Source: Streptomyces antibioticus (lineage in GTDB: Bacteria; Actinomycetota; Actinomycetes; Streptomycetales; Streptomycetaceae). Taken from it: a DNA stretch of 64,000 nt. The stretch covers positions 841,568-905,567 of the forward strand of contig NZ_KQ948424.1 in assembly GCF_001514065.1 (NCBI RefSeq), in the 5' to 3' direction. Numbering within the stretch: position 1 is the stretch's first letter; each line of letters begins with the position of its first letter. Positions 7,625 through 40,093 of this stretch are shown piece after piece. A program made the position numbers and the translations under genes. The notes under the pieces were generated by a model. The model was given only the letters and a program-made list of their open reading frames with translations. It searched no databases and was not told where the DNA came from.

Positions 7625-7642
7625 AGTTATGGATTACTAACT
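7625..7642. promoter_or_regulatory. Candidate TetR operator before the MFS gene
   Basis: The dyad AGTTA..TAACT (minus strand AGTTAGTAATCCATAACT) shares the AGTTAGT half-site with the stronger dyad at 8259-8280. It lies about 20-40 bp before the MFS start codon. Confidence 0.5.
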
Positions 7643-7680
7643 TTCGCGCTCACGAAAAGGCGCCGACGACGCCTCGCGAC

Positions 7681-17284: not shown

Positions 17285-17325
17285 GTGGGTGCCTTCAGAA
17301 GAGTGGTGGGTGCCTTCAGAAGAGT
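17285..17325 (-). repeat. 21-bp tandem duplication spanning the nuoN stop
   Basis: Two copies of GTGGGTGCCTTCAGAAGAGT are offset by 21 bp. The copy nearer the gene contains the TGA stop of nuoN, and the other lies just beyond it. Confidence 0.9.
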
Positions 17326-18827
17326 CCGGTGTCGGCGAAGCGCAGGACCAGTTGGGGAGCGCCCGACAGGGCGATGCCGAGGACGCCGGTGAGGGCGAGT
17401 GCGGCGGTGAGGGGCGCGGGGACCCTGTGGCGTACGGCTTCGCCCTCGGGCGCGCGGAACAGCAGCGCCGTCCACTGGAGGTAGTAGTACAGCGCGATCA
17501 CGACGTTGGCGGCCATGACCACGGCGAGCCAGCCGAGGCCGGCGTCGACGGCGGCGGAGAAGACGGTGACCTTGGCGAAGAGGCCGATGATGCCCGGCGG
17601 GAGTCCGGCGAGGCACAGCAGGAAGAACGCCAGGAGGAGCGCGGCGAGGGGGTTGGTGGCGTAGAGGCCCCGGTAGTCGCTGACGCGGTTGCGGGCCTTC
17701 GTACGGCCCACCAGTGCGGCCACCGCGAAGGCACCGAGGTTCACGGCGGCGTACATGAGGGCGTAGGCGACGGTGGAGCCGATGGAGTGCTCGGCGTCGT
17801 CGGAGTAGGCGGCCGCGGCGATCGGCACCAGGAGGTAGCCGGCCTGGCCGACGGAGGACCAGGCGAGGAGGCGTACGGCGCTGTACGCGCGCGTGGCCTG
17901 CTGTCGGAGGGCTCCGACGTTGCCGACGGTCATGGTGAGGGCGGCCAGCGCGGCCAGTGCCGGGCCCCAGACGTCGGCGTACGAGGGCAGGGCGACGACG
18001 GTGAGGAGGATCAGGCCGGAGAAGCCGACCGCCTTGCCGACGACCGACAAGTAGGCGGCGATCGGGAGAGGCGCCCCTACGTAGGTGTCCGGAACCCAGA
18101 AGTGGAAGGGCACGGCGGCCGTCTTGAAGGCGAAGCCGATGAGGGTGAGGACCACGCCGGTCTGGGTGAGGGTGTGGAGCTGGCCGTCGACGTGCTGGAT
18201 GCGGTCGGCGATCTGGGTGAGGTAGAGGGTGCCTGTGGAGGCGTACACGAAGCTGATGCCCATGAGGCTGACCGCGGTCGCGGTGACCGAGGACAGGAAG
18301 AACTTCAGGGCCGCTTCCGAGGACTTGCGGTCGCCTTGGCGCAGGCCTACGAGGGCGAACGCCGGCAAGGAGGCGACTTCCAGGGCGACGATCAGGGTGG
18401 CCAGGTCGCGGGAGGCGGGCAGGAGGGCGGCACCGGCGGCGGAGGAGAGCAGCAGGAACCAGTACTCCCCTTCGGGGAGTCCCTTGTCGGCATCCTTGAG
18501 GGCCGTGACCGACAGGAGGGCGGCCAGCAGCGCTCCGCCGAGCACCAGGAGCTGGAGGACGAGGGTGAAGCGGTCCGCGGTGTAGCTGCAGACGTCGGCT
18601 TGGCCGGACAGGCAGAAGGTGGCTCGGTCGGCGTCCAGGAGGGGCAGCAGCATGAGCGCGGAGGCGGCCAGGCCCGCGACGGACAGCCAGCCGAGCAGTG
18701 CCTTCTTCGCGTCACCGACGAAAAGATCAGCTACGAGGACGACGAGGCCGACGACTGCCGTGATGGCGGGCGGTGCGATGGCGAGCCAGTCGACCGACTG
18801 GACGAGGTTCGCGGCCAGGGAGCTCAT
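17316..18827 (-). CDS. nuoN: NADH-quinone oxidoreductase subunit N
   Basis: NuoN is an antiporter-like proton-translocating membrane subunit of complex I. The 503-residue product has about 14 hydrophobic spans, the conserved GFAFKTAAVPFHFWVPDTY segment (Lys and His of the proton path), and LLAWSSVGQAGYLLVPI. Its ATG start overlaps the nuoM stop by four bases. It is the last gene of the ten-gene operon running down from nuoA at 27825. Confidence 0.94.
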   Translation of the reverse strand: MSSLAANLVQSVDWLAIAPPAITAVVGLVVLVADLFVGDAKKALLGWLSVAGLAASALMLLPLLDADRATFCLSGQADVCSYTADRFTLVLQLLVLGGALLAALLSVTALKDADKGLPEGEYWFLLLSSAAGAALLPASRDLATLIVALEVASLPAFALVGLRQGDRKSSEAALKFFLSSVTATAVSLMGISFVYASTGTLYLTQIADRIQHVDGQLHTLTQTGVVLTLIGFAFKTAAVPFHFWVPDTYVGAPLPIAAYLSVVGKAVGFSGLILLTVVALPSYADVWGPALAALAALTMTVGNVGALRQQATRAYSAVRLLAWSSVGQAGYLLVPIAAAAYSDDAEHSIGSTVAYALMYAAVNLGAFAVAALVGRTKARNRVSDYRGLYATNPLAALLLAFFLLCLAGLPPGIIGLFAKVTVFSAAVDAGLGWLAVVMAANVVIALYYYLQWTALLFRAPEGEAVRHRVPAPLTAALALTGVLGIALSGAPQLVLRFADTGLF

Positions 18828-20398
18828 CGGGTGCCTCCTGCGAGGAGCTGCTGCACGGCCGGGTCGGTCAGACCCAGGAGGGCCTTGGGCCACAGGCCGG
18901 CTACGACGGTGAGGGCGACGAGCGGCGTCCAGGCCGCGAACTCGTACGCGTGGACGTCGGCGAGCTTCGGCGCGTCCTGCGGTACGGCGCCCATGCAGAC
19001 GCGGCGGACCACGGCGAGGAGGTAGGCGGCCGTGAGGAGGGTGCCGAAGGCCGCGATCGCCATGAAGGTGAGGAAGGCGGGGCGGCTGAGGTCGTCGGCG
19101 GGGTCGAACGCGCCGAACAGGGCCAGCATCTCGCCCCAGAACCCGGCGAGTCCGGGCAGGCCGAGGGAGGCGACCGCGGCGAACGCGAGCAGGCCGCCGA
19201 GGCGTGGGGCCTTGCCGTAGAGCGCGGCGCCGGTCTGTTCGGCGAGGGTGTCGAGGTCGGTGGTGCCCGTGCGGTCCTTGAGGGCTCCGACCAGGAAGAA
19301 GAGCAGGCCGGTGATGAGGCCGTGGGCGATGTTGGCGAACAGGGCGCCGTTCACGCCGGTCGGGGTCATGGTGGCGATGCCGAGGAGGACGAAGCCCATG
19401 TGGCCGACGGAGGAGTACGCGATGAGGCGCTTGAGGTCGCCCTTCGCGCCCTGCTTGGCGAGGGCCAGGCAGGCCAGGGACCCGTAGATGATCCCGACGA
19501 CGGCGAAGGCGGCGAGGTAGGGCGCGAAGTCGGCGAAGCCGTCGGGCGCGATCGGCAGCAGGATCCGGACGAACCCGTACGTGCCCATCTTCAGCAGAAC
19601 GCCGGCCAGCAGGACCGAGCCGACGGTCGGCGCGGCGGTGTGGGCGTCGGGCAGCCAGCTGTGCAGGGGCCACATCGGGGTCTTGACCGCGAGTCCGAGC
19701 CCGATCGCCAATACTGCGATGACCTGCACGGATGTGGTCAGCGACCGGCCGTTGTCAGTGGCGAGTGCCACCATGTCGAACGTGCCCGCCTTGATTCCGA
19801 TCAGGAGCAGGCCCAGCAGCATGACGACCGAACCGAGCAGCGTGTACAGGATGAAGCGCCAGGCGGCCGCGGTCCTGCCCTCGCCGCCCCAGCGGGCGAT
19901 GAGGAAGTACATCGGGATGAGCACCATCTCGAACGCCAGGAAGAACAGCAGCAGATCGAGGACGGCGAAGGTCGCGAGAGTGCCGGACTCAAGGACGAGC
20001 AGGAGGGCGACGAAGGCCTTCGGGGTGGGGCCCGCAGGCATCTTGAAGTACGAGTAGAGCGCGCAGAGGAAGGTCAGCAGCGCGGTCAGGACCAGAAGGG
20101 GGAGGGAGATGCCGTCGATGCCGAGGTGGATGCGCACGTCGAGTGCGGGGATCCAGCTGATGTCGGTCGTGGCCTGCATCTTCGACGGATGGTCGTGGTC
20201 GAAGCCGAGCGCGAGGACGATCGCGGCGACGAGAATCGCGCCGGTCACCGTCACCCCGTGCCGGAGGACGGCCTGCTCGGGCGACTTTCCCTTCAGTCCG
20301 GGCGGGGCGGGCAGCAGAGCGGCGACGGCGCCGAGGAGCGGGCCGACGACGACGAACGCCAGAAGAAACTGCATCACGGACTCGTTGATACCGATCAC
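18824..20398 (-). CDS. nuoM: NADH-quinone oxidoreductase subunit M
   Basis: NuoM is the second antiporter-like subunit of the membrane arm. The 524-residue product has about 14 spans, KTPMWPLHSWLPDAHTAAP carrying the conserved Lys, LLKMGTYGFVRI, and AYSSVGHMGFVLLGI. The GTG start at 20398 lies 6 bp after nuoL; an internal ATG eight codons on (MQFLLAFVV) is an alternative. It overlaps nuoN downstream. Confidence 0.95.
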   Translation of the reverse strand: MIGINESVMQFLLAFVVVGPLLGAVAALLPAPPGLKGKSPEQAVLRHGVTVTGAILVAAIVLALGFDHDHPSKMQATTDISWIPALDVRIHLGIDGISLPLLVLTALLTFLCALYSYFKMPAGPTPKAFVALLLVLESGTLATFAVLDLLLFFLAFEMVLIPMYFLIARWGGEGRTAAAWRFILYTLLGSVVMLLGLLLIGIKAGTFDMVALATDNGRSLTTSVQVIAVLAIGLGLAVKTPMWPLHSWLPDAHTAAPTVGSVLLAGVLLKMGTYGFVRILLPIAPDGFADFAPYLAAFAVVGIIYGSLACLALAKQGAKGDLKRLIAYSSVGHMGFVLLGIATMTPTGVNGALFANIAHGLITGLLFFLVGALKDRTGTTDLDTLAEQTGAALYGKAPRLGGLLAFAAVASLGLPGLAGFWGEMLALFGAFDPADDLSRPAFLTFMAIAAFGTLLTAAYLLAVVRRVCMGAVPQDAPKLADVHAYEFAAWTPLVALTVVAGLWPKALLGLTDPAVQQLLAGGTR

Positions 20399-20404
20399 GC
20401 CTGC

Positions 20405-22399
20405 TCACGCTCCCGTGGCGACGAGGACTGCGGCGACCACCAGGACGACGGTGCCGGCGAGCAGCGCGCTCACATAGGTCTGCACATTGCCGGTCTGGGC
20501 CCGCCGTACGGCCCAGCCGAGCGCCCGGGGCGTGGCTCCCGCGCCGCGTACGTAGGTCTCGACGACCTCGCGGTCGAGGAAGCGGACGAGAGTGGCGGCG
20601 GCCTGGACCGGGCGGACGAAGAGGGCCGAGTAGACGGCGTCGAGGTGGAAGCCGACGGCCGCGTGCCGATGCAGCGGGCCGAGGAGGAGCCGGCCGGGGT
20701 CGGCGGGGTCGGGCGCGTAGGCGATGTCCCCGTACGCCGGCTCGTGGCTGGCGATGGCCTCGGCCTCGACGAGGGCGGCGTCGCCCTCCGGGTGGGCGGC
20801 GACCGCGCCCAGCGGCACGCGAGCCGCGAGCGCGGTGGTGTGCCGCCAAGCGGCGTAGGTGACGATGCCGCCGACCAGGGCGACGCCCGTGCCGACGACG
20901 GACGTGGTCAGAGTCGGGGTCAGGTCGCGGCCGTCGAACCAGTCGGGCAGCACGCGGTAGGCGAGTCCGCCGACGGCGAGGGACGGGACGGCGAGCACCC
21001 ACAGGACCACGTTCATGGTGAGGGGCTGGCGGCCGTGGTCGGGGGCCTCGGCGCCCTGGCCGTAGAAGGCCAGCAGCCACAGGCGCGTCGCGTAGGCCGC
21101 CGTGAGCAGGGCCGTGAGCAGGCCCGCGACGAGGACGAGCCAGCCCGCTGCGCCGGGGGCGTGCTCGGTGTGGCCGGTGGCGACGTGCTCGGCGGCGCCG
21201 AGGACGGACTCCTTGGAGAAGAAGCCGCTGAACGGCGGGATCGCGGCGAGCGCGAGGAGTGCCACGGTCATCGTCCAGTAGGCGTCGGGCACGCGGTCGC
21301 GCAGGTGGCCCATGCGGGACATGGCGGCCAGTGAGTTGGTGCCGGCGGCGTGGATGATCACGCCGGCCGCGAGGAACAACAGCGCCTTGAAAGCGCCGTG
21401 CGACAGGAGGTGGAAGACGGCGGCACCGCGGTCGCCGACGGCGAGGGCGCCGGTCATGTAGCCGAGCTGGCCGATGGTCGAGTAGGCGAGAACGCGCTTG
21501 ATGTCGTCCTGGGCGAGCGCGGCGAGCGCCGAGCCCGTCATCGTCACGGCGGCCATGACGGCGAGGACGACCATCGCGGCCTGCGAGGCCTCGAAGACAG
21601 GGAGGAGACGGGCGACGAAGTAGACACCGGCGGCCACCATCGTCGCGGCGTGGATCAGCGCGGAGACGGGCGTGGGGCCCGCCATCGCGTCCGGGAGCCA
21701 GGTGTGCAGCGGGAACTGCGCCGACTTACCGGCCACCCCCGCGAGGAGCAGCAGGGCGATCAGGGTCGGGTGGTCCAGTCCCCCGCCAGCGACGGCGTCG
21801 AGCACCTTCGTGATGCGGAACGACCCGGCGTCGGTGGCCAGCGCGAACAGGCCGATGAGGAAGGGCACGTCGCCGAGCTTGGTGACGAGGAAGGCCTTGA
21901 TGGAGGCGGCGCGGGCCTCCGGGGTCTCCCAGTAGTGGCCGACCAGGAAGTACGAGCAGATGCCCATGACCTCCCAGCCCACCAGCAGCACCATCAGGTC
22001 GCCGGAGTAGACGACGAGGAGCATCGCGGAGGTGAAGAGGGAGACCAGGGCCGCGTACGACGGGTAGCGCGGGTCGTCGCGCAGATAGCCGGTCGAGTAG
22101 ATCTGCACGCAGCTCGCGACGAGTCCCACCAGAACAGCGACGAGGGCGGCGAAGCCGTCGATGTGCAGGGCGAGTTCGATCGGGATCGAGCCGGTGGGCG
22201 TGAGCTCGGTGGCGGCGTTCACGGCCTCGTCCCCGCCCTGGCGTACGGCGACGATCGCGGCCAGTACGAGGGAGGCGAGCGTCGGCAGTACCGCCAGCGG
22301 GCGGATGAACCCTGGTGCCGTGCGCCCCAGGAGCAGGCCGGCGGCCGCGCCCAGGAACGGAAGGAGGGGGACGAGGACGGCGAGGGTGGTGGTGGTCAC
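20405..22399 (-). CDS. nuoL: NADH-quinone oxidoreductase subunit L
   Basis: NuoL is the distal antiporter-like subunit with the long lateral helix. The 664-residue product shows [52 protein letters not shown] and [11 protein letters not shown], all standard NuoL motifs, and a long C-terminal region including the lateral-helix part. The GTG start overlaps the nuoK stop (GTGA). Confidence 0.96.
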
Positions 22400-22782
22400 G
22401 CGGTGGCCTCAGCCTTCTCGGCCGCGGTGGCGTCGCCGTCGGAGTCGGCGCCTTCGGGCTCGTGGCCCTCGGCGGTGTCGCGGAGCTTGTCGATGTCCGA
22501 GGTGCCGCGGTTGCGGTAGACGGCGAGGACGATCGCCAGGCCGATGCCGATCTCGGCGGCGGCGATGGCGATGGTGAACAGGGTCAGGGCCTGGCCGGAG
22601 TGCAGCGTCTCCTCGGCGGTCCGGCTGAGCCAGACGTCGAAGGCGACCAGGTTGAGGTTGACGGCGTTGAGCATCAGCTCGACCGACATCAGGACCAGGA
22701 TCGCGTTGCGGCGGGCGAGGACGCCGTACAGGCCGGTGCAGAAGAGGAGAGCGGAGAGCACGGCGGGATAGGCGAGGTGCAT
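22396..22782 (-). CDS. nuoK: NADH-quinone oxidoreductase subunit K
   Basis: NuoK is a small three-span subunit of the complex I membrane arm. The 128-residue product shows [20 protein letters not shown] with the conserved Glu, then [12 protein letters not shown] and [20 protein letters not shown]. It is longer than the usual 100 residues because of an acidic tail (about residues 103-128). Its ATG overlaps the nuoJ stop in a TGATG arrangement. Confidence 0.95.
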
Positions 22783-23456
22783 CAGCGGGCACCTCCCGGC
22801 TCGGTCGACTCGGTTCCCGAGGTCGGCACTTTTCGCTCGATCCGGTGATTGCGGGAATCCGGGACGGATGGGGAACCACCGGACACGGCCCGGGAGTTCA
22901 CAGGGGGCGAGGCCGACTCCGCCTTCGCCTTGCGGGACAGGACGATCGCGCCGACCAGCGCCGCGAGGAGCAGGACGGAGAGGGCCTCGAAGGGGAGCAC
23001 CCAGTTCTGGAAGAGGCTCGCTCCGGTGGCCTCCGTCGAGCCGGCGGCGGGGCCGTCCAGATCGACCCAGGTCGTGCGGAAGGCGTCGACGACGACCCAG
23101 ATCAGGGCGGCGGCCGAGGCGACGGCGACCGTGAGGGCGGCCCAGCGGTTGCCGGAGTCGGCGTCCGGAGAGCGGCCGATGGGGGCCTTGGTGAGCATCA
23201 GACCGAAGAGGAGGAGCACAACGACGGAACCGACGTAGATGAGGACCTGCACCCAGGCGATGAACTCGGCCGTGAGAAGGAGGTATTCGACGGCGAGACC
23301 CCCGAGGGTCACCACCAGCCACAGGGCGGCGTGCACCAGCTGCCGGGTGGTGACGGTGACGAGGGCCGCGCCGAAGGTCACCAGGCCGACGAGGAGGAAG
23401 GCGATCTCCACACCGGTCGGGGAGAGGAAGCCGTGCGTTTCGGCGGCGAGACTCAC
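22782..23456 (-). CDS. nuoJ: NADH-quinone oxidoreductase subunit J
   Basis: NuoJ is a five-span subunit with the mobile third helix of the proton pathway. The 224-residue product includes [20 protein letters not shown] and [21 protein letters not shown], the conserved signature. The GTG start ([15 protein letters not shown]) overlaps the nuoI stop. The last 35 residues, rich in Ser, Pro and Arg, are not typical of the core family. Confidence 0.95.
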
Positions 23457-24001
23457 GACTCTCCCTCCTGCTGCTCCGCCTGGGCGGCCAGCTTCTCGGC
23501 CGTCTTGCGGGCGGCGGCGATCTCCTTCGGCTCCTCGGCGGCGGGGTCGAGGGCCGGCGGGGCCGGGACGGTCCACATCCACTCGCGGAGCTTGTCCCGC
23601 TCGTGGGTGAGGTCGCGGATGTCGGTCTCGGCGTACTCGAACTCCGGCGACCAGAACAGGGCGTCGAAAGGACAGACCTCGATGCAGATACCGCAGTACA
23701 TGCACAGGGAGAAGTCGATTGCGAAGCGGTCGAGGACGTTGCGGCTGCGCTCGCGGCCACCGGGGGCGGCGGGCGGGACCGTCTCCTTGTGTGAGTCGAT
23801 GTAGATGCACCAGTCCGGGCACTCCCGGGCGCAGAGCATGCAGACCGTGCAGTTCTCCTCGAACAGGCCGATGACGCCGCGGGTGCGGGGCGGGAGGTCG
23901 GGCTGGACGTCGGGGTACTGCTCGGTGACGGTCTTCTTCGTCATCGTGCGGAGGGTGACGGCCAGGCCCTTGGCGAGGCCGCTGCCAGGAATGGGGGCCA
24001 T
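23453..24001 (-). CDS. nuoI: NADH-quinone oxidoreductase subunit I (two 4Fe-4S clusters)
   Basis: NuoI carries clusters N6a and N6b, passing electrons toward NuoB. The 182-residue product has [15 protein letters not shown] and [12 protein letters not shown], two complete CxxCxxCxxxCP motifs, and a Lys/Glu-rich C-terminal tail. The ATG ([12 protein letters not shown]) is 2 bp from the nuoH stop. In this reduced operon it is the only 8Fe ferredoxin-like subunit, so it is the likeliest entry point for electrons if a soluble donor is used. Confidence 0.95.
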
Positions 24002-24003
24002 GG

Positions 24004-24972
24004 TTACTGGATCACCACCTTGACGATGCCGGTGAGGGCGATCTGGGCGAGAGAAAGGGGGACGAGGAGGGTCCAGGAGAACTTCTGGAGCTGGTCCTCG
24101 CGCAGACGGGGGTAGGTCACGCGGAGCCAGATCACGACGAAGGCGAGGACGGCCGTCTTCAACAGGGTCCACACCCAGCCGAGGCCGTCGGCGCCCCAAG
24201 GGCCGTGCCAGCCGCCCAGGAAGAGGACGGTGGTCAGGCCGCACAGGACGATGATCCCGGCGTACTCGGCGAGCAGGAACAGGGCGAAGCGGAGGCCGGT
24301 GTACTCCGTGTAGGCGCCGAAGATGATCTCCGAGTCGGCGACGGGCATGTCGAAGGGCGGGCGCTGGAGTTCGGCGAGGCCGGCGACGAAGAAGACGATC
24401 GCGCCGACGATCTGCCAGGGCAGCCACCACCACTCGAAGGCGTCGACGATGCCGGGGAGGGAGACCGTGCCGGCCGCCATCGCGACGGAGGCGGCGGTCA
24501 GCAGCATCGGGAGTTCGTAGGCGAGGAGCTGAGCGGCGGTGCGGAGGCCGCCGAGAAGGGAGAACTTGTTGGCGGAGGCCCAGCCGGCCATGAGAGAGCC
24601 GAGGACGCTCACGCCCATGACGGCCAGGACGAAGAAGATGCCGGCGTCGATGACCTCGCCGACGGCGCCCTCGCCGGGGCCGATGGGGATGGCCAGGAGG
24701 ACCAGGAGGTAGGGCAGGAGGGCTACGGCGGGGGCGAGTTGGAAGATGCGGCGGTCGGCGCCCGCGGGTACGACGTCTTCCTTTTGCGCGAACTTCACGC
24801 CGTCCGCGACGAGTTGTGCCCAGCCGTGGAAGCCACCGGCGTACATGGGACCGAGGCGGCCCTGCATGTGGGCCATGACCTTGTGCTCGGTCTGGCCGAC
24901 GATCAGGGGGAAGGTGAGGAAGACGACGAAGACGATCAGGAGTCGCAGGGCGACGTCGAGAGCGTCGTTCAC
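24004..24972 (-). CDS. nuoH: NADH-quinone oxidoreductase subunit H
   Basis: NuoH is the membrane subunit that forms the quinone chamber with NuoB and NuoD. The 322-residue product shows [19 protein letters not shown] and [16 protein letters not shown] with the conserved acidic residues, and [15 protein letters not shown]. The GTG start overlaps the nuoC stop. All expected motifs are present, although NuoD is not encoded here. Confidence 0.95.
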
Positions 24973-26804
24973 TGCGGGCCTCCTGCGGGGTCTTCGGGGG
25001 TGTTGCGGGTGTGGGGGGTATTGGGGGAGCTAGGGGCGTCAGGGGTACCGGGAGAGTCGGGGGCTTCGGTGGTGCCGGGAGACTCTGGGGCGCCGGAAGA
25101 CGCGGGGTGGCCGAGAGGCTCGGGGTCGCCGACGGGGGTGTCGCGTGTCTCCGGACCTTCGGGCGCCGCTTCGGGGACGGGAGACTGATCAGCCTGTGCC
25201 TCGGGGCCCGGACCCGGCTCGGGTGTCGGGCGCGGTTCGGCCTCGGACTCCGGGCGCGGTTCGGACTCCGCCGCCGAAGCCGATCCGGACGGCCGCTCCG
25301 ACTCCGGGCTCGGTCCTGACACCGACTCCGGTGACGGCTCCGGGCGCGACTTCGATTCCGGTTGCGGTTGCGGCTCAGTTCCTGGCCGCTGATCGGCGCC
25401 GGATTCCCCGCCGGCGTCCGTCCCAGGCTCCGCGCCCCTTCCGGTGTCGGACTCGGCGTCCCGCCCGGATTCGGGTTCGTCGAAGGCTGGGCGGGCGTGG
25501 TGCCACGGGGCGTCGGCACTGCGAGGAGCACGCGAGGTGGGCTTCGGGGGCGTGGCGGCCGGGATCGGCTCATCGGCCGGTGCGGTGCCGGAGGGTGTGG
25601 TGCCGGGTGCGGAGGCCTGGCTGGCGGAGCCTTCCGAGGCGCTGCGGCGCGGAACGGCGGTGGAGTCAGTGCCGGTGCCCGGGGCGTCGGTGGCCGAGCC
25701 CTCGCTCGGAGTGTCGGCGCCCCCGGCTGCCGTCTGGCTCGCCGAGCCTTGGGCAGCCGTACGCGACCGGCGCGGGCCGGCAGCAGGAGTGGCCGGTACC
25801 GCCGACGTCTCCGTCTGGCTCGCCGAACCCTCCGCCGCCGAACGCGAGCGGCGCGGACCGGCAGCCGAAGCACCCGGCGCCGCCGACCCCTCCACCTGAC
25901 TCGCCGAACCCTCCGCCGCCGAACGCGACCGACGCGGACCGGCAGCCGAAGCACCCGGCGCCGCCGACCCCTCCACCTGACTCGCCGAACCCTCCGCCGC
26001 CGAACGCGACCGGCGCGGACCAGCAGCCGAAGTACCCGGCGCCGCCGACCCCTCCACCTGGCTCGCCGAACCCTCCGCCGCCGAACGTGACCGGCGCGGG
26101 CCGGCAGCCGAAGTACCCGGCGTCTCCGTCTCCTGGCTCGCCGAACCCTCTGATGCCGTGCGGGTTCGGCGGGTGGGGCGTTCGGTTGTCGGTCGTGGGC
26201 CTGTTGTGCGGGTGGGGCGGGCCGGGGCGGGGGGGAGTTGGCCCTTTTGGGGGCCCCAGTCGTTGGGGTCGGGGACGCCTGGGGGGAGCATCTGGCGGCG
26301 CTTGGGGCCGCCGTGGTCGGACTCGCCCGGTTCCTTCGCGCCGGGCCAGGCCTTGGCGACGCGGGCGGCCAGGACGAAGTCCTTGCGGAGGGGGTGGCCT
26401 TCGAAGGTTTCCGGAAGGAGGAGGTGGTCCAGGGCCGGGTGGCCCTCGAAGACGACGCCGAACATTTCGTGCGTCTCGCGTTCGTGCCAGGCCGCGCCGG
26501 CGAAGACGTGGACGGCGGTCGGCAGGGTCGGGGACTCGTGCGGGACCGTCGTCCGCAGAAGGAGGCGGCGTACCGGGGAGAGGGCGGCGACATGGGCGGC
26601 GACGCGGAAGCCGGTGCCGGGTTCGTCGACGGCGCTGAGCCAGTCGAAGTAGGTGCAGCCCAGTTCGTCGCGGGCCGTCTGGAGGGCGGTGGTCCAGGAG
26701 GCCGGTGGGACATCGACGGTGAGGACGTCGTAGGACTCCTCGGCGGTGGCGTCGGGGCCGAAGAGTTCCTCGGTGGGGGCGGGCAGCCAGCCGGTCGTGG
26801 TCAT
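24969..26804 (-). CDS. nuoC: NADH-quinone oxidoreductase subunit C with a giant low-complexity C-terminal extension
   Basis: Residues 1 to about 165 are a recognisable NuoC domain: [20 protein letters not shown], then [20 protein letters not shown] and EGHPLRKDF, the NuoC signature. NuoC normally ends near 160-240 residues, but this protein is 611. From about residue 190 it becomes Pro/Ser/Glu/Ala-rich and probably disordered. Five copies of a 27-residue unit beginning [15 protein letters not shown] start at residues 235, 262, 289, 316 and 343; an acidic Pro-Glu-Ser tail follows to the end. The frame stays open, so it is a true fusion-like extension and not a frameshift. The ATG overlaps the nuoB stop, and nuoH overlaps its end. 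No NuoD is present. Confidence 0.88.
25698..26102 (-). repeat. 81-bp tandem repeats inside nuoC
   Basis: Five copies of an 81-bp unit encode the 27-residue repeat. The central three are nearly identical at the nucleotide level, which suggests recent duplication or gene conversion. Confidence 0.9.
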
Positions 26805-27430
26805 CGTTCCTCCCCCGGGGTGGGAGAGGGGGCCTGCAGCAGGCCGCTCTGGAGGGCGGCCGGGGAGGGGCGTGCGGCGGTGCCGTTGCCGTACCGCTCC
26901 CCCAGCGACTCGCGGGCGATCTTCTCCTGGAGCTTGAGGATGCCCTGGAGCAGCGCCTCGGGGCGGGGCGGGCAGCCGGGGACGTAGACGTCGACGGGGA
27001 TGATCTGGTCGACGCCCTTGGTGACGGAGTAGGAGTCCCAGTACGGGCCGCCGCAGTTGGAGCAGGCGCCGAAGGAGATGACGTACTTGGGTTCCGGCAT
27101 CTGTTCGTAGAGGCGCTTCACGGCGGGAGCCATCTTGTCCGTCACCGTGCCCGACACCACCATGAGGTCGGCCTGCCTCGGGCCCGGCGCGAAGGGGATG
27201 ACGCCGAGGCGGATGAAGTCGTGGCGGGCCATCGACGCGGCGATGAACTCGATCGCGCAGCAGGCGAGGCCGAAGTTGAAGACCCAGAGCGAGTAGCGGC
27301 GGCCCCAGTTGAGGACCACCTTCATCGGCTCGGGGGCCAGGCGGGCGAGGGCGCCCAGGCGCTTGGGCTCCGGCAGGAGCACGGGCTCCGGCGAGGTCGG
27401 GTCGGGAGTCACGTTCGGCGTCACGTCCAT
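26801..27430 (-). CDS. nuoB: NADH-quinone oxidoreductase subunit B (N2 cluster)
   Basis: NuoB carries the terminal 4Fe-4S cluster N2 at the quinone site. The 209-residue product has [10 protein letters not shown] (tandem Cys), [16 protein letters not shown] and [14 protein letters not shown], the four-cysteine set. A 27-residue C-terminal extension is Pro/Ser-rich. The ATG overlaps the last 10 bp of nuoA. Confidence 0.96.
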
Positions 27431-27825
27431 GTCAGGACGCCCTTCTTGTAGGCGTACAGCAGGCCCACGGCCAGGAAGCCGAGGAAGATGAACATCTCGA
27501 CGAGGGTGGTGGCGCCGTAGCCGGGGGCGGCGAAGATCGTGGCCCAGGGGAACAGGAAGATCGAGTCGACGGCGAAGATGACGTAGAGGAAGGCGTAGAC
27601 GTAGTAGCGGACCTGGGTGTGGGCCCAGCCTTCGCCGACGGGGTCGACGCCGCACTCGTAGGTCAGGAGTTTCTCCGGGGTGGGAACCACCGGGCGCAGC
27701 AGTCGTCCGGCGCCGAAGGCGACCGCGACGAACAGCACGCCGACGACGGCGAGCAGCCCGACGACGGAATACGACTGGAAGTAGTCCGAGTAGTCCGACG
27801 CCACGACAGTGGTCGGTTCTCGCAC
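27421..27825 (-). CDS. nuoA: NADH-quinone oxidoreductase subunit A
   Basis: NuoA is a three-span membrane subunit at the quinone chamber. The 134-residue product shows [20 protein letters not shown] with the conserved Cys loop, [21 protein letters not shown], and a C-terminal span. The start is GTG ([16 protein letters not shown]). It is the first gene of the operon; the promoter must lie in the 205 bp shared with the divergent sensor kinase gene. Confidence 0.95.
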
Positions 27826-28030
27826 GTCCGCCCCTCGCTCCCTGTGATCTACGTCGTTCGACGATCTGTACGCACGGGAGTCTAGGGCCTGCTAAAGAAC
27901 GCGTAAGCAGCCCGTCACCGCTTGAGATGCCTGTACGAGAGAGGAAGGGGGGCAGGGTGGGGTTTTCCCCCGGGTGGCGCGGCGGTCCGCCTCATGGCGT
28001 CGCGGCGCGCCGCGCGGCACGCTAACCCAT

Positions 28031-29257
28031 ATGACCGAACGCCCCAGCCCTTCACCGGCCACGACCTACCGGGACGACGCCTTCGACGGCCGGCCCGAGC
28101 CCCTGCCGCCCGTCCGGTTCGCCTACGACGCGCACACCTGGAAGGAGATCACGCATCTCCTGTTGAACTTCCCGGCGGCGTTGCTCGGGTTCGTGTACGT
28201 CACGACGGTGCTGTTCACCGGTTTCGGGATGACCGTGACGGTGGTCGGGTTCCCGTTGCTGGCGGCCGGGCTGATGGGGGCGCGGAAGCTGGGTGCGCTG
28301 GAGCGGCGGCGGGCCCGGGCGCTGCTCGGGGTGCGGATCGACGAGCCGAGTCCGCTGCCGCTGAGGGCCCGCAATGCGGGTCTCTTCCAGAAGCTGTGGA
28401 TGATGCTGAAGGATCCGGTGGGCTGGCGGACGGTGCTGTACGACTTCATCCGGCTGCCCTGGGGCATTCTCACCTTCACTGTCACGCTGACCTCGCTGTT
28501 CGTGCTGTGGCCGGTGCTGCCGTACCTGGCGCGGGGGCTGACCAACGCCGACCGGGCGATGGTGCGGGGGCTGCTGTCGCCGTCGGACGAGCTGGAACGT
28601 CGTATCGCGGAGCTGGAGTCGGACCGCGGGGTCGTGGTCGACACGGCCGCGGCGGATCTGCGGCGGATCGAGCGGGATCTGCACGACGGGGCGCAGGCCC
28701 GGCTGGTCAACCTCGCCATGGGTCTTGGGCTGGCGAAGGAGAAGCTGCTGGAGGACCCGGAGTACGCGCAGGCGATGGTCGCGGAGGCGCACGGCGAGGT
28801 GAAGCTGGCGTTGCAGGAGCTGCGGGATCTGGCGCGCGGGATCCATCCCGCGGTGCTGACGGACCGGGGACTGGACGCGGCGCTGTCGTCGGTGGCGTCG
28901 CGGTGCACGGTGCCGGTGAAGGTGACCGCCGACCTGGACTCCCGGCCGGCCGCGGCGATCGAGGGCATCGCCTACTTCACCGTCTCCGAGCTGCTGCAGA
29001 ACATCAGCAAGCACAGCGGGGCGAGGTCGGCGTCGGTGGAGGTGTGGCGGTCGGGCGACCGGTTGCTGATCCAGGTGTGGGACGACGGCCGGGGCGGCGC
29101 CCGGCTCGACGGCGGCACCGGCATGCGGGGGCTCGCGGAGCGGCTGGACGCCGTCGACGGGTTGTTCGTCATCGACTCACCGGTGGGCGGGCCCACGACG
29201 GTGACGGCGGAGCTGCCTTGGCGGGACCGGTCGGCGCAGGACGCCCCTCGGGGATAG
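28031..29257 (+). CDS. Sensor histidine kinase, NarL-type, copy 1
   Basis: A 408-residue membrane sensor kinase. Residues 30-180 form the actinobacterial 'Sensor' domain with about four hydrophobic helices. The HisKA_3 dimerisation domain carries the phospho-acceptor His in ERDLHDGAQARLV (about residue 220). The HATPase domain has N-box SELLQNISKHS, G1 DDGRGG and G2 GMRGLAERL. Upstream frame codons lack coding character, so the ATG at 28031 is used. The next gene is a close paralogue, and the likely response regulator is at 32341. The signal sensed is unknown. Confidence 0.92.
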   Translation: MTERPSPSPATTYRDDAFDGRPEPLPPVRFAYDAHTWKEITHLLLNFPAALLGFVYVTTVLFTGFGMTVTVVGFPLLAAGLMGARKLGALERRRARALLGVRIDEPSPLPLRARNAGLFQKLWMMLKDPVGWRTVLYDFIRLPWGILTFTVTLTSLFVLWPVLPYLARGLTNADRAMVRGLLSPSDELERRIAELESDRGVVVDTAAADLRRIERDLHDGAQARLVNLAMGLGLAKEKLLEDPEYAQAMVAEAHGEVKLALQELRDLARGIHPAVLTDRGLDAALSSVASRCTVPVKVTADLDSRPAAAIEGIAYFTVSELLQNISKHSGARSASVEVWRSGDRLLIQVWDDGRGGARLDGGTGMRGLAERLDAVDGLFVIDSPVGGPTTVTAELPWRDRSAQDAPRG

Positions 29258-29411: not shown

Positions 29412-30749
29412 ATGGCCACGGATTACGGACAGAGCTACGGGTTCCTGGAGGAGCCGCGGCGGCGTCGGCTGCCGGCCGGGCTGCGGGCGCCGTTCGAGGG
29501 GCGCACCTGGCGCGAGTTCGGATATGTGCTGCTCAGCCTGCCGGTCAGCATCCTGCTGTTCACGTACGGCGTCACGATGGTCTCGATCGGTGCCGGGCTG
29601 CTGGTGACGTTCCTCGGGGTTCCGGTGCTGGCGGCGGGGCTGGCCGGGTGCCGGGGGTTCGGGGCGCTGGAGCGGGCGCGGGCGCGCGGGCTGCTGGGGC
29701 TCGACGTCGCCGACCCGGAGCCGCTCAGGATGCGGGGGCACGGGTTCCTGGCGTGGATGGGGGCCGTGCTGAAGAGCGGTACCTCGTGGCGGGCGCTGCT
29801 GTACTCGGTGATCCAGTTGCCGTGGTCGGTGTTCTCGTTCGTGGTCGCGGTCAACTTCTGGGCGTACGGATGGGCGCTGCTGACGTATCCGCTGTGGTTC
29901 TGGCTGTTCCCGGCGTACGGCGGGCAGGACGGGCTTCAGCTCTACGGCGACGAGACGCATCACATCTATCTCGACAACCCCTTCGAGATCGGTGTGACGG
30001 CGTTGGTGGGGCTGTTGTTCACGCTGGCCACACCGTGGATCGTGCGGGCGCTGACGCAGGTCGACCGGGTGCTGGTGCACGGGCTGCTGGGGCCCTCGCG
30101 GCTGGCGACGCGGGTGGTGGAGCTGGAGTCGGACCGGGGGGTCGTGGTGGACACGGCGGCGGCGGATCTACGGCGGATCGAGCGCGACCTGCACGACGGG
30201 GCGCAGGCCCGGCTGGTGGCGCTGGCGATGGATCTGGGGCTGGCGAAGGAGAAGCTGACGGAGGATCCGGAGGCGGCGGCGCGGATGGTGGACGAGGCGC
30301 ACGGTGAGGTGAAGACGGCGTTGCAGGAGCTGCGGGATCTGGCGCGCGGGATTCATCCGGCGGTGCTGACGGACCGGGGGCTGGATGCGGCGCTGTCGGC
30401 GGTGGCGTCGCGGTGCACGGTGCCGGTGCAGGTGGAGGTGGACCTGGTGGAGCGGCCGGCGCCGGCGATCGAGGGGATCGCGTACTTCACGGTGTCGGAG
30501 CTGTTGCAGAACATCAGCAAGCACTCGCGGGCGACGTGGGCGGGGGTGGATGTGTGGCGGGTGGAGAGCCGGCTGATGTTGCAGGTGGTGGACAACGGGG
30601 TCGGGGGCGCTGACACGGCCGCGGGGTCCGGGCTGGCGGGGTTGGCTGAGCGGCTCGATGCGGTGGACGGGATTCTGGTGGTGGATTCGCCGGTGGGGGG
30701 GCCTACGCGGATCACTGCGGAGTTGCCTTGGCGGGGGGAGCGGGGGTGA
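29412..30749 (+). CDS. Sensor histidine kinase, NarL-type, copy 2
   Basis: A 445-residue paralogue of the preceding kinase. The catalytic half is nearly identical (ERDLHDGAQARLV, LRDLARGIHPAVLTDRGLDA, SELLQNISKHS, DNGVGG, GLAGLAERL). The N-terminal 'Sensor' domain differs and includes an extra segment (GGQDGLQLYGDETHHIY) between spans, so it may sense a different signal. It starts with ATG after a GAAGG site and ends just before a dispersed repeat. Tandem duplication of the kinase is clear at DNA level. Confidence 0.92.
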   Translation: MATDYGQSYGFLEEPRRRRLPAGLRAPFEGRTWREFGYVLLSLPVSILLFTYGVTMVSIGAGLLVTFLGVPVLAAGLAGCRGFGALERARARGLLGLDVADPEPLRMRGHGFLAWMGAVLKSGTSWRALLYSVIQLPWSVFSFVVAVNFWAYGWALLTYPLWFWLFPAYGGQDGLQLYGDETHHIYLDNPFEIGVTALVGLLFTLATPWIVRALTQVDRVLVHGLLGPSRLATRVVELESDRGVVVDTAAADLRRIERDLHDGAQARLVALAMDLGLAKEKLTEDPEAAARMVDEAHGEVKTALQELRDLARGIHPAVLTDRGLDAALSAVASRCTVPVQVEVDLVERPAPAIEGIAYFTVSELLQNISKHSRATWAGVDVWRVESRLMLQVVDNGVGGADTAAGSGLAGLAERLDAVDGILVVDSPVGGPTRITAELPWRGERG

Positions 30750-30774: not shown

Positions 30775-30930
30775 CAGTGGTTTCGCCCCCGCCGCCCCTA
30801 CCCGTCCCATCCTCCAGGGGCTGCCGCCCCTTCGACCCCGCGTCCCTGGGGGCTGCCGCCCCCAGACCCCCGCTTCGGCCCCGAAAGGGCCTCGTCCTCA
30901 AACGCCCCCAGAGGGGGCGCCCCCAGACGG
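30775..30930. repeat. GC-rich intergenic repeat of Streptomyces type, reaching into the next gene
   Basis: The block beginning TTTCGCCCCCGCCGCCCCTA and containing two variants of GGGGCTGCCGCCCC, CTTCGGCCCC and CTCGTCCTCAAACGCC matches a repeat I remember from many Streptomyces intergenic regions. It contains the stop codon of the minus-strand quinone oxidoreductase gene. No second copy is present in this window. Confidence 0.65.
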
Positions 30931-32100: not shown

Positions 32101-32340
32101 AGGGCCTCCCCCTCGCCCGCCGGGCGCCTCCCGCCCGTGACGTAGGCGCGAACCATCCCCTGATCTGCCTGCATTCCCTGCCCATCCGCCACCCTGGCAC
32201 TTTTCACACCCCGTTCATCGGCCCCGAATCCCGTCGCTCCGGCACGAGTCCGTGGGAATACTGGAATGCTGGACTTTGCCTCGTCGGGGAGACGGGTGCG
32301 GAGTCGGGCTGTCGGGGGGCCGAGGATCGTGGAGGACAGG

Positions 32341-33000
32341 GTGCGGGTGGTCATCGCCGAGGATTCAGTGCTGCTCAGGGAAGGGCTGACCCGGCTGCTG
32401 ACCGATCGTGGGCTTGATGTCGTCGCGGGGGTGGGGGACGGCGAGGCGCTGGTCAAGACCATCACCGAGCTCGACGCCCAGGGCGAGCTGCCGGACGTGG
32501 TGGTGGCGGATGTGCGGATGCCTCCCACGCACACCGACGAGGGGGTGCGGGCCGCCGTGCAGCTGCGCAAGGCCCATCCCCGGCTCGGGGTGCTCGTGCT
32601 GTCGCAGTACGTCGAGGAGCGGTACGCGACCGAACTTCTCGCCGGGTCCAGCCGTGGCGTCGGCTATCTGCTCAAGGACCGGGTAGCCGAGGTGCGTGAG
32701 TTCGTGGACGCGGTGGTACGGGTCGCCGAGGGCGGTACGGCGCTGGACCCGGAGGTCGTCGCGCAGTTGCTGGGGCGCAGCCGCAAGCAGGACGTGCTCG
32801 CGGGACTCACCCCGCGGGAGCGGGAAGTGCTGGGGCTGATGGCCGAGGGACGGACGAACTCGGCGATCGCCCGGCAGCTGGTGGTGAGCGACGGGGCGGT
32901 GGAGAAGCACGTCAGCAACATCTTCCTGAAGCTGGGGCTGTCTCCGAGTGACGGGGATCACCGTCGGGTGCTCGCGGTCCTCACCTATCTGAACTCCTGA
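32341..33000 (+). CDS. Response regulator, NarL/FixJ family
   Basis: This 219-residue DNA-binding regulator starts at GTG 32341 (MRVVIAEDSVLLREGL), with a GGAGG site at proper distance. The receiver domain occupies residues 1-115, with phospho-acceptor Asp in VVVADVRMPP and Lys in YLLKDRV. A LuxR-type helix-turn-helix follows (LTPREREVLGLMAEGRTNSA, VEKHVSNIFLKLGL). It is the natural partner of the two sensor kinases upstream, although a minus-strand gene separates them. Confidence 0.93.
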   Translation: MRVVIAEDSVLLREGLTRLLTDRGLDVVAGVGDGEALVKTITELDAQGELPDVVVADVRMPPTHTDEGVRAAVQLRKAHPRLGVLVLSQYVEERYATELLAGSSRGVGYLLKDRVAEVREFVDAVVRVAEGGTALDPEVVAQLLGRSRKQDVLAGLTPREREVLGLMAEGRTNSAIARQLVVSDGAVEKHVSNIFLKLGLSPSDGDHRRVLAVLTYLNS

Positions 33001-33265: not shown

Positions 33266-35194
33266 GTGACCAGCCAGGTCAGTAGCCCAGCGGAGCAGGC
33301 CGACGAAGCCGTCGTGGGAGAGCAGCGCAAAGCAGCAGGAACGAAGGACGTCCGCCGCCTCGACCGGGTGATCATCCGCTTCGCGGGGGACTCGGGCGAC
33401 GGTATGCAGCTCACCGGCGACCGCTTCACCTCCGAAACGGCCTCCTTCGGCAATGATCTGTCCACTCTCCCCAACTTCCCCGCCGAGATCCGGGCGCCTG
33501 CCGGAACACTGCCGGGTGTCTCCTCCTTCCAGCTGCACTTCGCCGACCACGACATCCTCACTCCGGGTGACGCGCCGAACGTCCTGGTGGCGATGAACCC
33601 GGCCGCCCTCAAGGCCAACATCGGCGATCTGCCACGCGGCGCCGAGATCATCGTCAACACCGACGAGTTCACCAAACGGGCGATGCAGAAAGTCGGGTAT
33701 TCCGAGAGTCCCCTGGAGGACGGGTCGCTCGACGGGTACAGCCTCCACCCTGTACCGCTGACGACACTCACGGTGGAGGCACTGAAGGAATTCGACCTGT
33801 CCCGCAAAGAGGCCGAGCGCAGCAAGAACATGTTCGCGCTCGGCCTCTTGTCGTGGATGTACCACCGGCCCACCGAGGGCACGGAGCGGTTCCTGGCCTC
33901 GAAGTTCGCCAAGAAGCCCGAGATCATGAAGGCGAACCTCGCCGCCTTCCGCGCGGGCTGGAACTTCGGCGAGACGACCGAGGACTTCGCGGTCTCCTAC
34001 GAGGTCGCCCCGGCGGCCACCGCCTTCCCGGTCGGCACCTACCGCAACATCTCCGGGAACCTGGCGCTGTCCTACGGACTGATCACCGCGTCCCGCCAGG
34101 CGGACCTGCCGCTGTATCTGGGCTCGTACCCGATCACCCCGGCGTCCGACATCCTGCACGAGCTGAGCAAGCACAAGAACTTCGGTGTCCGCACCTTCCA
34201 GGCGGAGGACGAGATCGCCGGCATCGGTGCGGCGCTGGGCGCGGCGTTCGGCGGTGCGCTGGCGGTGACCACGACGAGTGGTCCGGGGGTGGCGCTCAAG
34301 AGCGAGACGATCGGTCTCGCGGTCTCCCTGGAGCTGCCGCTGCTCGTCATCGACATCCAGCGCGGCGGCCCGTCGACCGGTCTGCCGACCAAGACCGAGC
34401 AGGCGGACCTGCTCCAGGCGATGTTCGGCCGCAACGGCGAGGCGCCGGTCCCGATCGTCGCGCCCCGCACCCCGGCCGACTGCTTCGACGCGGCACTGGA
34501 GGCGGCCCGCATCGCGCTGACCTACCGCACCCCGGTGATGCTCCTGTCGGACGGCTACCTGGCCAACGGCAGCGAGCCCTGGCGCATCCCGGAGCTCGAC
34601 GAACTCCCGGACCTGACCGTGCAGTTCGCGCAGGGACCGAACCACACCCTGGAGGACGGCACCGAGGTCTTCTGGCCGTACAAGCGCGACCCGCAGACCC
34701 TGGCCCGCCCCTGGGCGGTCCCCGGAACGCCGGGCCTCGAACACCGCATCGGCGGCATCGAGAAGCAGGACGGCACGGGCAACATCTCCTACGACCCCGC
34801 CAACCACGACTTCATGGTCCGCACCCGGCAGGCCAAGATCGACGGCATCGACGTACCCGATGTCGAGGTCGACGACCCGCACGAGGCGCGCACGCTGGTG
34901 CTGGGCTGGGGATCGACGTACGGCCCCATCACCGCCGCCGTCCGCAGACTGCGCGCGGCCGGCGAGCCCATCGCGCAGGCCCATCTGCGCCACCTCAACC
35001 CCTTCCCGCGGAATCTCGGCGCGGTTCTGCAGCGCTACGACAAGGTGGTGATCCCCGAGATGAACCTCGGGCAGCTCGCCACGCTGATCCGGGCGAAGTA
35101 CCTGGTCGACGCCCACTCGTACAACCAGGTCAACGGAATGCCGTTCAAGGCCGAACAGCTCGCCACGGCTCTCAAGGAGGCCATCGATGGCTGA
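33266..35194 (+). CDS. korA: 2-oxoacid:ferredoxin oxidoreductase, alpha (fused gamma-alpha) subunit
   Basis: KorA with KorB oxidatively decarboxylates 2-oxoglutarate (or another 2-oxoacid) to the acyl-CoA and reduces ferredoxin. The 642-residue product begins with the gamma domain (residues 30-210: IIRFAGDSGDGMQLTGDRF, NFPAEIRAPAGTLPGVSSFQ). The pyrimidine-binding alpha domain follows (GSYPITPASDILHELSKHK, FQAEDEIAGIGAALGAAFGG, TTTSGPGVALKSE). The GTG start has a GGGAGG site. The stop overlaps korB by 8 bp. No dedicated ferredoxin gene is adjacent. Confidence 0.94.
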   Translation: MTSQVSSPAEQADEAVVGEQRKAAGTKDVRRLDRVIIRFAGDSGDGMQLTGDRFTSETASFGNDLSTLPNFPAEIRAPAGTLPGVSSFQLHFADHDILTPGDAPNVLVAMNPAALKANIGDLPRGAEIIVNTDEFTKRAMQKVGYSESPLEDGSLDGYSLHPVPLTTLTVEALKEFDLSRKEAERSKNMFALGLLSWMYHRPTEGTERFLASKFAKKPEIMKANLAAFRAGWNFGETTEDFAVSYEVAPAATAFPVGTYRNISGNLALSYGLITASRQADLPLYLGSYPITPASDILHELSKHKNFGVRTFQAEDEIAGIGAALGAAFGGALAVTTTSGPGVALKSETIGLAVSLELPLLVIDIQRGGPSTGLPTKTEQADLLQAMFGRNGEAPVPIVAPRTPADCFDAALEAARIALTYRTPVMLLSDGYLANGSEPWRIPELDELPDLTVQFAQGPNHTLEDGTEVFWPYKRDPQTLARPWAVPGTPGLEHRIGGIEKQDGTGNISYDPANHDFMVRTRQAKIDGIDVPDVEVDDPHEARTLVLGWGSTYGPITAAVRRLRAAGEPIAQAHLRHLNPFPRNLGAVLQRYDKVVIPEMNLGQLATLIRAKYLVDAHSYNQVNGMPFKAEQLATALKEAIDG

Positions 35195-36266
35195 GACGTC
35201 CACGGAAGGCACGGGCACGATCGAGGCGCTCTCCCTCGTCCCCAAGGCCGAGGGACGCCAGGCGATGAAGGACTTCAAGTCCGACCAGGAGGTCCGCTGG
35301 TGCCCCGGCTGCGGGGACTACGCGATCCTCGCCGCCGTCCAGGGCTTCATGCCCGAACTCGGCCTCGCCAAGGAGAACATCGTCTTCGTCTCCGGCATCG
35401 GCTGCTCCTCCCGCTTCCCGTACTACATGAACACGTACGGCATGCACTCCATCCACGGCCGCGCACCCGCCATCGCCACCGGACTGGCCACGTCCAGGCG
35501 GGACTTGAGCGTGTGGGTGGTCACCGGTGACGGGGACGCCCTCTCCATCGGCGGCAACCACCTGATCCACGCCCTGCGCCGCAACGTGAACCTGAAGATC
35601 CTCCTCTTCAACAACCGGATCTACGGCCTGACGAAGGGGCAGTACTCCCCCACTTCGGAGGTCGGCAAGATCACGAAGTCGACGCCGATGGGTTCGCTGG
35701 ACGCGCCCTTCAACCCGGTGTCGCTGGCGATCGGCGCGGAGGCCTCCTTCGTCGCCCGGACGGTGGACTCCGACCGCAAGCACCTCACCTCGGTCCTGCG
35801 GGAGGCTGCCGCCCACCCGGGCACGGCACTGATCGAGATCTACCAGAACTGCAACATCTTCAACGACGGCGCCTTCGAGGTCCTGAAGGACAAGCAGCAG
35901 GCGGAGGAAGCGGTGATCCGCCTCGAACACGGGCAGCCGATCCGCTTCGGCGCGGACGGCGCGAAGGGTGTCGTACGGGACCGTCTGACGGGTGATCTGA
36001 AGGTGGTGACGGTGACGCCGGAGAACGAGGCGGACGTCCTGGTCCACGACGCCCACGCGGCGTCCCCGACCACGGCCTTCGCCCTCTCCCGCCTGGCCGA
36101 CCCGGACACCCTGCACCACACCCCGATCGGTGTGCTGCGCTCCGTGGACCGCCCGGTGTACGACACACAGATGGCGGACCAGCTCGACACGGCGATCGAA
36201 CAGAACGGCAAGGGGGATCTGGCGTCGTTGCTGGCGGGTGGGGACACCTGGACGGTGGTGGGCTGA
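35187..36266 (+). CDS. korB: 2-oxoacid:ferredoxin oxidoreductase, beta subunit
   Basis: The 359-residue beta subunit binds thiamine pyrophosphate and a 4Fe-4S cluster. It shows WCPGCGDYAIL near residue 37, VSGIGCSSRFPYYMNTYG, and the TPP motif VTGDGDALSIGGNHLIHALR through FNNRIYGLTKGQYSP. It overlaps korA and ends before a strong hairpin. The 2-oxoglutarate preference is inferred from family resemblance. Confidence 0.94.
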   Translation: MAETSTEGTGTIEALSLVPKAEGRQAMKDFKSDQEVRWCPGCGDYAILAAVQGFMPELGLAKENIVFVSGIGCSSRFPYYMNTYGMHSIHGRAPAIATGLATSRRDLSVWVVTGDGDALSIGGNHLIHALRRNVNLKILLFNNRIYGLTKGQYSPTSEVGKITKSTPMGSLDAPFNPVSLAIGAEASFVARTVDSDRKHLTSVLREAAAHPGTALIEIYQNCNIFNDGAFEVLKDKQQAEEAVIRLEHGQPIRFGADGAKGVVRDRLTGDLKVVTVTPENEADVLVHDAHAASPTTAFALSRLADPDTLHHTPIGVLRSVDRPVYDTQMADQLDTAIEQNGKGDLASLLAGGDTWTVVG

Positions 36267-39951: not shown

Positions 39952-40093
39952 ACGCCGGTCACCGTCTTCGACGCCAAGCCGTAGACGCCGGTCACCGTCT
40001 TCGACGCCGAGCCGTAGACGCCGGTCACCGTCTTCGACGCCGAACCGTGGACACCGGTCACCGCCGTCGACGCCGAGCCGTGGACGGCGCTCA
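39936..40093. repeat. 33-bp tandem repeat, five copies, at the rarD 3' end
   Basis: Copies of CGACGCCAAGCCGTAGACGC followed by CGGTCACCGTCTT begin at 39936, 39969, 40002, 40035 and 40068. They are increasingly divergent, and the first contains the rarD stop codon. Confidence 0.9.

Follow-up and report, generated by a model that had tools for sequence, protein, structure and literature searches.

The nuo2 cluster and the nuoC2 gene

The window, that is, the whole 64,000-nucleotide stretch of Streptomyces antibioticus DNA analysed here, holds a cluster of complex I genes (nuo2) on its minus strand. The cluster comprises nuoA2, nuoB2, nuoC2 and nuoH2 to nuoN2; none of the NADH module genes E, F and G was seen in it, as read from the list of open reading frames. 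The genes are as follows.

27421..27825, minus strand: nuoA2 (open reading frame and matches in relatives; no family scan)
26801..27430, minus strand: nuoB2 (PF01058; start read from the sequence), whose stop overlaps the nuoC2 ATG
24969..26804, minus strand: nuoC2 coding sequence, 611 aa (open reading frame and PF00329)
24004..24972, minus strand: nuoH2 (PF00146), whose GTG overlaps the nuoC2 TGA
23453..24001, minus strand: nuoI2, with both four-cysteine motifs (read from the sequence)
17316..23456, minus strand: nuoJ2, nuoK2, nuoL2, nuoM2 and nuoN2 (nuoK2 by PF00420; the others by sequence and order)

The nuoC2 frame runs unbroken from the ATG at 26804 to the stop at 24969. Residues 30–148 match PF00329 (Complex1_30kDa) with an E-value of 1.5e-33 and 116.4 bits, which passes the curated cut-off of 22.5, and 16 NCBIfam NuoC models match as well, every one of them under its cut-off (e.g., TIGR01961, 93.8 vs. 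122.45). The NuoC domain is followed by a conserved hinge and then by about 420 residues rich in P, A, S, G, E, T and R; an 81-bp tandem array lies in this part of the gene, and the end of the protein is acidic. Residues 166–611 (446 aa) consist of 17% P, 17% A, 14% S, 11% G, 9% E, 9% T and 8.5% R. An earlier note on this DNA had described a NuoC domain and a repeat-rich tail of this length in one frame, ending in an acidic segment; the description is correct, its coordinates are exact, and the strand is minus. The parts of the gene, all on the minus strand, are listed below.

26313..26804, minus strand: NuoC core, residues 1–164 (PF00329 at residues 30–148)
26241..26312, minus strand: conserved hinge, residues 165–188 (pN/pS 0.007 in 19 close pairs, from residue 171; PPGVP also found outside the family)
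25734..26122, minus strand: 81-bp tandem array, 4.8 copies, in 27-residue units with one motif A each (TRF)
26133..26168, minus strand: motif A copy 1, residues 213–224 (pattern)
26058..26093, minus strand: motif A copy 2, residues 238–249 (pattern)
25977..26012, minus strand: motif A copy 3, residues 265–276 (pattern)
25896..25931, minus strand: motif A copy 4, residues 292–303 (pattern)
25815..25850, minus strand: motif A copy 5, residues 319–330 (pattern)
25734..25769, minus strand: motif A copy 6, residues 346–357 (pattern)
25617..25649, minus strand: degenerate motif A, residues 386–396 (pattern)
25473..25520, minus strand: motif B, residues 429–444, with the sole Trp of the tail (Trp-anchored comparison)
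24972..25472, minus strand: acidic C-terminal segment, residues 445–611 (composition, charge)
24979..24984, minus strand: AGGAGG in the final nuoC2 codons, likely the nuoH2 ribosome site (read from the sequence, six bases before the nuoH2 GTG)

TRF gives the array a match rate of 90% and a score of 589, the highest among the ten rows with a score of at least 80 in the window; the copy number comes from a 29-contig draft. The pattern RxRxxxxGSASQ occurs in the tail in six copies plus the degenerate one. The nearest named relative, Streptomyces sp. Act143 (L033, core 96% identical), reveals the same architecture with four copies of motif A, separated by less alike stretches. Judged by this comparison, motif A seems to have expanded locally and recently into the five 27-residue units of the window. 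A search with the array as a whole did not find it elsewhere in the S. antibioticus genome (next best E 0.03). Past its single Trp the tail is net negative, and the charge asymmetry about this residue was matched by 1 of 20000 permutations.

Several other candidates were rejected. The C-terminal sequence AGGPQ that recurs among relatives is accounted for by the likely nuoH2 ribosome site AGGAGG in the final nuoC2 codons together with the overlap of the two genes, and it is not taken as a protein motif. The tail is not a decayed NuoD of the kind found in NuoCD fusions: the 611 residues give no PF00346 match at E 0.1, and an intact NuoD2 exists. In a plasmid search, none of 155 records covers 80% of the query, and all are below 60% identity.

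Coding capacity and distribution of the tail

The tail frame is coding. In 13 disjoint pairs of close relatives, spacer differences at codon positions 1, 2 and 3 amount to 0.136, 0.105 and 0.232 per codon, respectively, and 61 of the 65 gaps in whole-gene nucleotide alignments of the same pairs are multiples of three. The earlier note had allowed for the repeat block being an assembly artefact. This is rejected as a class, since the same kind of tail recurs in independent genomes, single-contig ones among them. A strain-specific oddity is likewise rejected, as the tail runs through the family.

An orthologue-level NuoC2 match is present in 145 of 150 Streptomyces genomes. This count leaves out a match in G017 (7e-21) that looks like a NuoC1 paralogue; the clear misses are G001, G102, G135 and G139. 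In the family sample, NuoC2 was found in 59 of 61 genomes and 15 of 17 genera; the family is called Streptomycetaceae on the ground that the named records are nearly all Streptomyces. Outside it, NuoC2 occurs in many Actinomycetes and in 13 of the 15 searched members of the order.

The 156 family loci yield 135 unique complete proteins, the remainder being truncated at contig ends or duplicates. The earlier note had proposed to compare tail length and repeat number across Streptomyces genomes: past the PPGVP hinge, 130 intact family tails measure 91–547 residues (median 286.5), none of these intact-frame proteins ending sooner, and motif A is present in 1–8 copies. The hinge is shared with NuoC2 outside the family, where 31 complete proteins end 6–96 residues past PPGVP (median 23) and motif A is found in 0 of 31. 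Seven NuoC1 proteins, including one from this genome, end without a tail. With the tail in the family and short ends outside, the tail looks like a family gain, and it would have been gained once, in the family ancestor.

Left out of the charge, pN/pS, frame and family-length counts are L025, L249 and L266 (off-frame), L234 (tail replaced) and L093 (runs into downstream genes). The off-frame tails of L025 and L266 have motifs A and B in other frames, through either a sequencing error or a genuine change of frame; L249 looks off-frame too, and no motif was seen in any of its frames. In genome G012 (L234, L270, L295), nuoC2 is broken within the tail, the core entering a frame that is DnaQ-like by eye, while motifs A and B turn up some 650 kb away in a stretch ahead of nuoH2, through an inversion or a misassembly.

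Conserved motifs and drifting spacers

The 331 distinct copies of motif A give the consensus RRxR[ST][AV]x[EQD]GS[AV]SQ. The search pattern itself imposes two of the R and the G, S and Q; at positions that it leaves free, the preceding R is kept in 99% of the copies and the S before Q in 89%. The motif is present in 131 of the 135 unique complete family proteins, and the four that lack it are the off-frame L025, L249 and L266 and the tail-replaced L234. All fourteen non-Streptomyces genera of L250–L269 possess it (19 of 20 loci, the miss being L266, with the motif in another frame). Motif B, that is, DAPW and its neighbours, is found in 126 of 135 proteins. It is absent in L267–L269, which are the three deepest family members fetched, in L231 and in five off-frame or broken tails.

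Exactly one Trp occurs in 125 of 130 tails, with none in four and two in one. Anchored on this Trp, D at −3 and A at −2 are each kept in 124 of 125 tails and P at −1 in 125 of 125. Synonymous change is ongoing around it (pS 0.19–0.55), and beyond about −8 and +11 pN approaches pS. In 19 close pairs, pN/pS is 0.17 for the core, 0.007 for the hinge, 0.12 for the motifs and 0.50 for the spacers; these pairs share members and the motifs were marked by pattern in one member per pair, and the 13 disjoint pairs agree. The values at pattern-located motifs (B 0.12, A 0.32) are biased by the pattern, and the Trp-anchored and close-pair tests are relied on instead. Conserved motifs amid fast-changing spacers are what a disordered scaffold with short linear motifs displays. 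It is well supported by these comparisons that NuoC2 bears a conserved, motif-bearing arm, which suggests a role in docking and not junk.

The charge layout recurs among relatives. All 126 tails carry a net negative charge past motif B, and 119 of them a net positive one before it, if a weak one (median +0.05 per residue). In 98 of the 126 tails, fewer than 1% of 500 permutations reach the observed charge split about motif B. AlphaFold, run with an alignment of near relatives, gives no secondary structure after residue 183, with a mean pLDDT of 49.7 and the core modelled badly too. Because the model is poor everywhere, the disorder rests mainly on composition, and the tail is probably disordered.

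NuoD2 and the composition of the complex

The earlier note had seen a cluster that lacks both the NADH module and NuoD. The former part stands; the latter does not, as a complete nuoD2 is found on a different contig (L145, 6771–8183, minus strand, PF00346, protein P0002). Of 47 genomes with NuoC2 that were searched for NuoD2, 45 have it. The 47 comprise 27 of the 51 class genomes outside Streptomyces that carry NuoC2, 13 Streptomyces and seven from the order; the two misses, G112 and G294, are both drafts. In all 45, nuoD2 lies apart from nuoC2, at its closest about 87 kb away on a shared contig (places compared by hand). Given an intact NuoD2, no NuoD replacement is needed. The suggestion that the tail tethers a substitute for NuoD or for the NADH module has against it that NuoC2 outside the family, where nuoD2 is displaced too, has no such tail.

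NuoI2 holds two 4Fe-4S cysteine motifs. In the part consulted of a published account (PMC3765725), Streptomyces is credited with nuoA2, B2, D2 and H2–N2, contiguous save for nuoD2 and apparently in one operon, and nuoC2 is not named there. By its gene content, Nuo2 is an 11-subunit complex I (A2, B2, C2, D2, H2–N2) without the NADH module.

Among 74 NuoC2-negative genomes, five divergent full-length NuoD2 relatives with 40–49% identity were found (G311, G325, G342, G389 and G408, which have no close NuoC2 match). The 74 were taken from 86 class genomes without a NuoC2-grade match; nine of the 12 left out are less than 90% complete. A PF02636 methyltransferase gene (L145, 5742–6806, plus strand) is convergent with nuoD2 (6771–8183, minus strand). 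Matches lie near nuoD2 in 13 of 30 loci, ten of them within the first 12, which are all Streptomyces; PF02636 is presumably the family of the assembly factor NDUFAF7.

The korAB neighbourhood

Upstream of nuo2, the window carries genes for a 2-oxoacid:ferredoxin oxidoreductase.

33266..36266, plus strand: korA and korB, 2-oxoacid:ferredoxin oxidoreductase (Pfam; TIGR03710, TIGR02177)

KorA scores above the TIGR03710 cut-off, and KorB is just under that of TIGR02177 (248 vs. 262). The two genes are divergent from nuoA2 at a distance of 5.4 kb, and two histidine kinases, a response regulator and a dehydrogenase-like open reading frame lie in between. Besides the window, ten of the 19 nuo2 neighbourhoods that were fetched contain korA/korB, and seven of these ten come from outside the family. 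Several of the other neighbourhoods end too early to show the pair; L274, L279, L284 and L288 extend about 6–9 kb upstream of nuoA2 and do not contain it. This linkage ties nuo2 to ferredoxin metabolism, with ferredoxin as a putative donor. Outside the family, nuo2 is retained in relatives that lack the arm, and in seven fetched cases korAB is retained as well. The arm is therefore not needed for the use of ferredoxin; it would tune such use and not enable it.

Of the intervening genes, the two neighbouring histidine kinase-like frames (27974–29257 and 29412–30749) are similar, the second being assigned by family scan, as is the LuxR-type response regulator (32266–33000). Histidine kinase/regulator matches recur beside nuo2 in several family genomes. 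The zinc-binding dehydrogenase-like frame (30898–32100, minus strand) contains an in-frame 30-bp tandem array of 4.9 copies (31677–31822); nuoC2 is thus not the only gene in which repeats have grown in frame. Other tandem arrays in the window lie at 39935–40095 (33 bp × 4.9) and 4685–4794 (8 bp × 13.5).

Comparison with other complex I systems

NuoC2 has the core domain of the complex I 30 kDa subunit (PF00329) and the same gene position between nuoB and nuoH, and it differs in adding the tail of about 420 residues. As far as the consulted parts of the literature go, 11-subunit complexes I without the NADH module (PMC11238625; cyanobacterial NDH-1) share the set A–D plus H–N, with E, F and G likewise missing from the nuo2 cluster. 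In the present case, however, nuoD2 is displaced, the NuoC tail is long, and the donor is putative. Of the complex I chains with solved structures, the best match is mycobacterial NuoC for NuoC2, mycobacterial NuoI for NuoI2 and Thermus NuoD for NuoD2; NdhJ, NdhI and NdhH score lower, so that the solved structures nearest to Nuo2 are not those of the ferredoxin-dependent NDH-1.

In cyanobacterial NDH-1, which also has no NADH module, the counterparts are NdhI for NuoI, NdhH for NuoD and NdhJ for NuoC. The portions consulted of two structural reports (PMC6992706, PMC7021789) show ferredoxin docked at the basic pocket that NdhI and NdhH provide, and NdhO docked on NdhJ, NdhK and NdhN. The NuoC2 arm would, like NdhO, NdhS and NdhV, serve ferredoxin access at the peripheral arm, although those are separate subunits. 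The alignment of the ferredoxin-contact lysines K315 and K321 of NdhH with R304 and K310 of NuoD2 (positions counted by eye) was not used, because NuoD1 seems to be basic at one of those positions.

Possible role of the arm

We tentatively favour, at somewhat less than an even chance, a docking function: the NuoC2 arm of the 11-subunit Nuo2, gained in the family ancestor and disordered, may provide multivalent docking for a soluble acidic partner, with ferredoxin and KorAB as the first candidates. The ancestral NuoC2 would have acquired a C-terminal arm in which fast-drifting spacers bear one to eight basic motifs RRxRSxxEGSASQ, mostly one aromatic motif DAPW...PAF and an acidic end. Copy number would shift by tandem duplication and loss, and the motifs would be held by selection. 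NuoC belongs to the peripheral arm of complex I, and capture of a soluble acidic partner from there is the most likely use; a basic, multivalent arm attached to NuoC2 would be suited to enriching ferredoxin or its reductase locally, and the acidic end could fold back onto motif A as a competitor. Of this reading, the analysis shows the coding frame, the conservation, the motifs, the charge layout, the limit to the family, the eleven genes and the korAB neighbourhood; the single gain, the disorder, the binding, the identity of the partner and ferredoxin as the donor are our inference. The proposal in the earlier note that the tail binds a soluble donor is accordingly the favoured candidate reading, on indirect grounds. 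A stricter version, in which this built-in arm captures the electron donor itself (ferredoxin/KorAB), evolved once in Streptomycetaceae and is tuned by repeat number, is rather doubtful.

The tail may instead be neutral: the stop would have shifted, leaving the frame open as far as the nuoH2 ribosome site, and slippage, in a genome rich in GC, would have filled and lengthened it, with constraint confined to the last codons. The wide range of lengths (91–547 residues), the spacer pN/pS of 0.50, the further tandem arrays in the window, one within the dehydrogenase frame, and the explanation of the AGGPQ end by AGGAGG and the gene overlap all fit such a history. It does not fit that motif A is kept in 131 and DAPW in 126 of 135 proteins whose cores are 61–100% identical to that of the window, that the motifs have a pN/pS of 0.12, or that intact-frame family proteins never end less than 91 residues past the hinge. 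For the motifs, neutrality is largely refuted; for the spacers it could hold; as an account of the whole tail we regard it as very improbable. A sorting or assembly function, whereby the tail would hold NuoC2 together with NuoD2, the product of a distant gene, and apart from NuoD1, is unlikely: the separation of the two genes in all 45 genomes with NuoD2 (about 87 kb at the closest on a shared contig) and the PF02636 methyltransferase beside nuoD2 in 13 of 30 loci speak for it, but nuoD2 is equally displaced outside the family, where NuoC2 has no tail.

The charge blocks might also bring complexes together or to a site in the hypha. The charge split is consistent with such clustering, being so strong in 98 of the 126 tails that fewer than 1% of 500 permutations reach it, and repeats suit multivalency; however, the other 28 tails fail the charge test, and clustering leaves the residue-by-residue conservation of motifs A and B unexplained, which makes it quite unlikely. 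RRxR[S/T] could serve as a kinase substrate in a phosphorylation switch, the residue after the third R of RRxR being S in 64% and T in 32% of the 331 distinct copies. The literature search, as far as its sources were available, found no phosphosite data, and we give this switch little credence. As for the docking function, a conserved NuoC2 arm in an easily grown genus offers a pull-down handle for finding the donor of a complex I.

Long extensions in NuoC and other proteins

The arm would be a clear bacterial example of a region, probably disordered, that retains its motifs while its length and spacers drift. The noncatalytic region of RNase E, as described in the parts consulted of PMC4435900, is similar in being a mostly disordered C-terminal part with conserved microdomains with which partners associate. 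RNase E is a different enzyme, and the NuoC2 partner is putative.

In the portions consulted of the literature on Streptomyces nuo genes, nuoC2, nuoD2, 11-subunit complex I and NuoC extensions, no description of the NuoC2 tail was found; judged by titles, the name nuoC2 occurs in work on Liberibacter and Sinorhizobium. SCO4601, which we take to be the S. coelicolor name of nuoC2, returned no paper in the literature search. Long NuoC extensions are not unheard of. For instance, the NCBIfam NuoC model NF005832 (PRK07735.1), whose host group is presumably Bacillus, has about 300 positions outside the domain, but at the N-terminal side: NuoC2 matches it at profile positions 304–424 of 430.
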